In this document: piece by piece, positions 5,088 through 5,412 of the stretch
Layout: every line of letters begins with the position of its first letter
Numbering within the stretch: the stretch's first letter is position 1
From: Crocinitomicaceae bacterium
GTDB lineage: Bacteria > Bacteroidota > Bacteroidia > Flavobacteriales_D > Parvicellaceae
Reading direction: 5' to 3'
NCBI GenBank assembly: GCA_018663635.1
Contig: JABJPZ010000237.1
Coordinates: 1 to 50,152 of the forward strand
Length of the DNA: 50,152 nt
Position numbers and translations under genes: made by a program
The notes under the pieces: model-generated
What the model was told of the DNA's origin: nothing
Database searches by the model: none
What the model saw: the letters and a program-made list of their open reading frames with translations, nothing else

Positions 5088-5097
5088 CTTTTATTAA

Positions 5098-5270
5098 ATA
5101 AAAAACCCACATGGCGTAGAAGTTTATTAAACCTCTAAAGACACTTATGAGAACGCAGATTGAGTTCTGTAATCCGCCTGGAATCAAAAAGAAACAGCGG
5201 CACGCCATAATTCAAACAATTAATTCCCAATATAAAAAACGTTAGGTTTAAATACTGGCCATGTGGGTCG
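5098..5270 (-). ncRNA. Candidate structured small RNA (6S-like or other unassigned), probably minus strand
   Basis: Perfect 10-bp closing stem CCCACATGGC (5106-5115) / GCCATGTGGG (5258-5267). Nested 8-bp stem TTAAACCT (5127-5134) / AGGTTTAA (5244-5251). Internal hairpins AGAAC/GTTCT (5150-5154/5164-5168) and CCGC/GCGG (5174-5177/5197-5200). Read on the minus strand, the closing stem is followed immediately by TTTTTT (5105-5100), as in an intrinsic terminator. No ORF fits here. Confidence 0.5.
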
Positions 5271-5412
5271 GCTTGCACCTGGACTCAGATATAACAAAAG
5301 TTATTCGATTCCTTCTACTAAATTAAGATTTCTTAACTAATATTGCAATCACTATCTAACCTAAATTCTTAATTTCAAGAAATTATTGTACTAAACTCAT
5401 AATATATTAGCT

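Follow-up and report, generated by a model that had tools for sequence, protein, structure and literature searches.

The window (the whole 50,152-nucleotide stretch of DNA analysed here) contains a 325-nt gap, positions 5088-5412, flanked by two plus-strand genes, one for an SPFH/Band-7 protein (Pfam PF01145) and the other for a carbonic anhydrase (PF00484). A reading made from the sequence alone had picked out four helices (5106-5115/5258-5267, 5127-5134/5244-5251, 5150-5154/5164-5168, and 5174-5177/5197-5200) and a minus-strand 3' arm, GCCATGTGGG, that continues into TTTTTT, all of which are indeed present, and had proposed a minus-strand RNA of the 6S type. 6S RNA is a bacterial small RNA that switches RNA polymerase off as growth slows. 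The minus strand between 5270 and 5100 encodes a conserved structured RNA, and with a probability of about 0.92 the segment from ∼5313 to 5100 represents a divergent 6S RNA gene in this member of the Flavobacteriales. The gene and its strand were established computationally, as were its fold, its homology, its copy number, and the conserved promoter motif. Its expression, polymerase binding, and synthesis of product RNA (pRNA) are inferred; by analogy with 6S RNAs already characterised, its rod would resemble an open promoter and keep the primary-sigma polymerase bound until pRNA synthesis releases it. Standard annotation passes over the gene, whose sequence is by now too unlike those in the catalogue to be recognised (18.7 bits, with the cut-off at 60).

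The transcript is predicted to start near 5313 (about 5311-5313) and to end at 5100, giving a length of ∼215 nt. The sequence-only reading had expected ∼165-175 nt, from ∼5270 to 5098; it had the strand right, but the 5' end probably lies further upstream. The parts of the RNA and of its putative promoter are as follows, in transcript order.

5346-5348, minus strand: TTG, a tentative -33-like element, 20 nt upstream of the -7 box
5318-5325, minus strand: putative -7 promoter box TAATTTAG, matching 5 of the 6 specified bases of the consensus TAnnTTTG
5281-5312, minus strand: leader hairpin L-I, starting about at the predicted transcript start; a leader hairpin at this place is also predicted for the majority of the 19 closest relatives, although the sequences diverge
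5270-5279, minus strand: second leader hairpin, L-II (GGU-GCAA-GCC, GNRA loop), directly adjoining the closing stem; hairpin score 6.5
5258-5267, minus strand: 5' arm of closing stem P1 (CCCACAUGGC); compensatory changes in 7 of 10 pairs within the family and in 9 of 10 across families
5244-5251, minus strand: 5' arm of stem P2 (UUAAACCU); pairing is complete (100% of cells) across 19 sequences, with a C-G to U-A exchange among them
5231-5243, minus strand: 5' strand of the central bubble, 13 nt unpaired between P2 and P3; by analogy, the proposed pRNA template
5224-5230, minus strand: 5' arm of stem P3 (UUGGGAA); 4 pairs with double changes
5212-5217, minus strand: 5' arm of stem P4 (GUUUGA); double changes in all 6 pairs
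5197-5200, minus strand: 5' arm of stem P5 (CCGC); relatives vary between CCGC/GCGG, CCGA/UCGG, and CCAC/GUGG
5174-5177, minus strand: 3' arm of stem P5 (GCGG), opening the conserved GGAUUACA motif, whose columns are invariant in 19 sequences
5158-5163, minus strand: 3' arm of stem P4 (UCAAUC); covariation in 19 sequences
5147-5153, minus strand: 3' arm of stem P3 (UUCUCAU); covariation in 19 sequences
5135-5146, minus strand: 3' strand of the central bubble, 12 nt unpaired between P3 and P2
5127-5134, minus strand: 3' arm of stem P2 (AGGUUUAA); covariation in 19 sequences
5106-5115, minus strand: 3' arm of closing stem P1 (GCCAUGUGGG); sequence and covariation
5100-5105, minus strand: U-tract, predicted from sequence to form an intrinsic terminator together with P1; U-rich in all 19 relatives

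When 98 related genomes were searched by BLAST with a 211-bp region, clear homologues turned up in about 20 of them, nearly all in the same family, with identities down to ∼69-75%. In a sequence-only alignment of 19 sequences (A1), the conserved fold is an unbranched rod that consists of P1, P2, a bubble of 13 x 12 nt, P3, P4, P5, and a variable tip. This is the 6S shape, in which a large central bubble separates the closing stem from the terminal one. The covariation called for by the sequence-only reading was found: 95.2% of the cells are paired and 21 of the 35 pairs have changed on both sides, versus 86.0% and 11.7 in shuffles and 25-51% of the cells paired with slid partners (a second count of the same rod gave 96% paired and compensatory changes in 21 of 36 pairs). 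When the comparison was extended across families to 57 sequences, in an alignment (A4) that was fitted to the structure, 94.9% of the cells are paired and 31 of 34 pairs carry compensatory changes, with a covariation score of 0.671 versus 0.249 for shuffled sequences and 0.07-0.14 for slid partners. The same rod is returned by RNAalifold without an input structure.

Three of the four helices picked out initially, namely the closing stem, the 8-bp stem, and the CCGC/GCGG stem, are thus conserved, all with compensatory changes, but the hairpin 5150-5154/5164-5168 is not, as the number of the 19 relatives able to form a given pair ranges only from 7 to 18. It also clashes with the covarying stems 5224-5230/5147-5153 and 5212-5217/5158-5163, which had escaped notice in the sequence-only reading.

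The distribution of the RNA was followed with a covariance model, R1, built from these 19 sequences. Of the 245 Flavobacteriales genomes searched, 84 matched it strongly, representing 8 families. Among 148 other genomes, mostly from the rest of the class, R1 found it in 4 more (two of those loci also match the Rfam family RF01693); with so few matches, this set also serves to check specificity. In four genomes of the same family that are at least 95% complete (G004, G005, G006, and G012), strict filters left no R1 match at E <= 0.1; there, the 6S RNA is either still more divergent, or lost, or missed. One genome is placed in a different family, f11, yet its 6S RNA (locus L011, G048:C108, 159 bits) is no more distant from the window's family than are those of that family's own members; this likeness could come from transfer, a misbinned contig, or loose taxonomy.

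A scan of the whole window against Rfam at gathering thresholds came back empty, and the best low-threshold match in the gap is a full-length one to RF01693 (Bacteroidales-1) on the minus strand at 5273-5099, with 18.7 bits and an E value of 0.42, which is insignificant on its own. The gathering cut-off of 60 bits, which the window fails to reach, is passed by 1 of the 98 related genomes, and in the window's own genome another locus outscores the window with this model. At the loci of the BLAST relatives, the same model reaches E values of 2.9e-6 (G013), 8.7e-5 (G022), and 4.6e-4 (G007 and G008), with others up to about 1e-2, and R1 in turn picks up loci from other families that RF01693 had detected first, mostly with E values of 1e-10 to 1e-18. 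Significant homology to RF01693 is therefore seen through the aligned relatives and reciprocally with R1, not with the window alone. The similarities extend to the core motifs AUGGCG...GGAUUACA, the closing stem with its U-tract terminator, and the size; in contrast, the RF01693 model has no counterpart of the 5' GNRA leader hairpin found in the window's lineage.

The second relevant family, RF01685 (6S-Flavo), matches relatives of the window RNA at identical coordinates, at E values of 4.5e-6 (G027, the best, with 46.4 bits), 1.1e-5 (G032), 9.2e-5 (G009), and 2.8e-4 (G024). However, the Rfam model spans only 108 internal positions, its cut-off of 85 bits is reached in none of the genomes searched, and the window itself gives no match at E <= 1. 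Two loci (L021, G027:C353, and L016, G024:C28) clearly match both RF01693 and RF01685, and a third (L019, G032:C149) also matches both, one of the two marginally. Given these common loci, Bacteroidales-1 and 6S-Flavo very likely describe one and the same RNA, which suggests that the two entries belong merged or in one clan. 6S-Flavo has been described as a 6S-type RNA (PMC2864571), whereas the equation of Bacteroidales-1 with 6S RNA rests on the Rfam annotation "6S-Bacteroidales RNA suggested." Judging by these sequence relationships, the window's gene belongs, as a divergent member, among the Bacteroidota 6S RNAs catalogued under the two names. Of the family names floated initially, Bacteroidales-1 was apt, whereas Flavo-1 should give way to 6S-Flavo, and the alternative of a new class finds no support.

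The canonical 6S family, RF00013, shares with this RNA the rod, the central bubble, the closing and terminal stems, and the length of about 170-190 nt. Nevertheless, it was rejected as the family, with no match at E <= 1 in any of the 98 related genomes; the E. coli, B. subtilis, Caulobacter, and Synechococcus controls all matched. Low-threshold matches in the gap to snoZ163, GcvB, and Plastid-rpl20 score far below their cut-offs and were set aside as chance.

Most likely, the window RNA would sequester the primary-sigma polymerase and release it by pRNA synthesis. In this mechanism, modelled on better-known 6S RNAs, the rod would pass for an open promoter, to which the enzyme stays bound as growth slows, and release would follow once the polymerase has copied a short product RNA off the bubble's 5' strand; P1, running into the U-tract, would double as closing stem and terminator, in line with the initial view that the RNA carries its own terminator. 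Within the same phylum, a 6S RNA and its pRNAs have been detected experimentally in Bacteroides thetaiotaomicron (PMC7366714), the basis for the mechanistic analogy, and Flavobacterium psychrophilum also expresses a 6S RNA (PMC9723704). As the 6S assignment rests on homology and shape, the RNA might instead be a conserved polymerase- or protein-binding RNA that descends from 6S RNA or resembles it and serves another function, such as one of the Ms1 type, binding core polymerase without giving rise to pRNA. Ms1 illustrates that a 6S-shaped RNA can bind core RNA polymerase instead (PMC9130861). Such a function is improbable here, given that the loci match RF01685 and RF01693 and that pRNAs have been reported for the Bacteroides 6S RNA (PMC7366714).

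Taken by itself, the window sequence has a multibranched minimum-energy fold (-53.6 kcal/mol, compared to -46.2 kcal/mol for the constrained rod). This fold was rejected as the conserved structure, as only 67% of its inner pairs form in the alignment versus 96% for the rod. 6S RNAs refold during pRNA synthesis, so the multibranched fold may represent an alternative state of the RNA. In many of the relatives at loci L012-L027, the 3' strand of the bubble and the 3' arm of P2 can form a local hairpin, GUUAAAC-AGAA-GUUUAAC, that competes with P2; exactly this hairpin is not available to the window, where another can form locally. The competing hairpin may act as a refolding switch during pRNA release.

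Against dinucleotide shuffles (n = 200), the minus strand at 5270-5098 folds with -53.6 kcal/mol versus -34.2 +/- 3.8 kcal/mol (z = -5.1; none of the 200 shuffles is as low). Location between two genes could also suggest a cis element of a neighbour, either a 3' untranslated region or terminator of the SPFH gene or a plus-strand leader of the carbonic anhydrase gene, and the plus strand does beat its shuffles, with a weaker fold (z = -2.9). However, the U-tract, the -7 box, the stronger fold, and the best matches of all models are on the minus strand, and the SPFH and carbonic anhydrase genes flank the RNA in only 3 of 34 tested loci, all three within the genus, with different neighbours elsewhere. 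This limited synteny shows the RNA to be an independent gene and not an untranslated-region element, so a cis role is largely refuted and very unlikely. With its own -7 box and U-tract terminator, a size of ∼160-220 nt, one copy per genome, and unconserved neighbours, the RNA has the properties of a free-standing gene.

Of the 84 Flavobacteriales genomes positive with R1, 83 carry one copy, and the remaining genome has one weak extra match. A mobile or repetitive palindromic (MITE-like) element with terminal inverted repeats, which the perfect 10-bp inverted repeat of the closing stem might bring to mind, is hardly credible and was rejected on copy number, given a single copy in the window's own genome, long-term conservation with internal covariation, and no further copies with target-site duplications seen.

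In 19 aligned leaders, the TAnnTT columns that precede the rod do not vary; they correspond to the core of TAnnTTTG, the -7 box consensus of the Bacteroidota sigma-ABfr (PMC7366714). The motif TAnnTTT[GA] occurs at a similar distance in 38 of 50 relatives, versus 8.4 expected. Measured from the model start, it lies at -55 to -61 for the window's family and for most of the f8 relatives, whereas -24 to -36 is the usual distance for families f3, f4, and f13. The window and its two closest relatives miss the strict motif by one or two substitutions in the box. TTG is found at a spacing of 18-22 nt from the -7 box in many relatives, not all. The promoter of the 6S gene is accordingly predicted, from its sequence, to be of the sigma-ABfr type, TTG-N20-TAATTTAG.

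In the lineages with long leaders (the window's and several others), a promoter ∼55-61 nt upstream of the rod is predicted to be followed by a leader of two hairpins. As a MAFFT alignment of the leaders (A5) lined up the hairpins too poorly for pair counts, hairpins were compared with shuffles instead. A hairpin score of at least 8 (a cut chosen by the author) was found at the L-II site in 31 of 36 long-leader relatives, versus 8.1 expected, but in only 1 of 14 relatives from lineages with nearer promoters, versus 3.2 expected, so that an L-II-type hairpin is missing from the latter, although these counts somewhat overstate the evidence because related sequences are not independent. The window's own L-II, at 6.5, falls just under the cut. 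In many relatives, GNRA loops are combined with varied stems, for example, GGUA-GCAA-UACC, GGUC-GUAA-GACC, GACC-GCAA-GGUC, and GAUGU-GUAG-ACAUC. A limited literature search found no description of such a 6S leader. Tentatively, and with the odds somewhat against it, the two-hairpin leader could be a working part of the 6S RNA in part of the Flavobacteriales, making it a variant with an added 5' domain. If it is retained in the RNA and has a role, the leader could protect or process the 5' end, bind a protein or the polymerase, or modulate pRNA release.

The 6S kind of RNA is itself already known, and what is new here is a divergent 6S gene below the Rfam cut-offs together with a lineage-specific leader. 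The analysis supplies a 6S RNA gene for Flavobacteriales genomes in which the present Rfam cut-offs find nothing, and a structure-based model could annotate 6S RNA over much of the order. It also reveals a structured leader, specific to certain lineages, whose presence tracks the position of the promoter.
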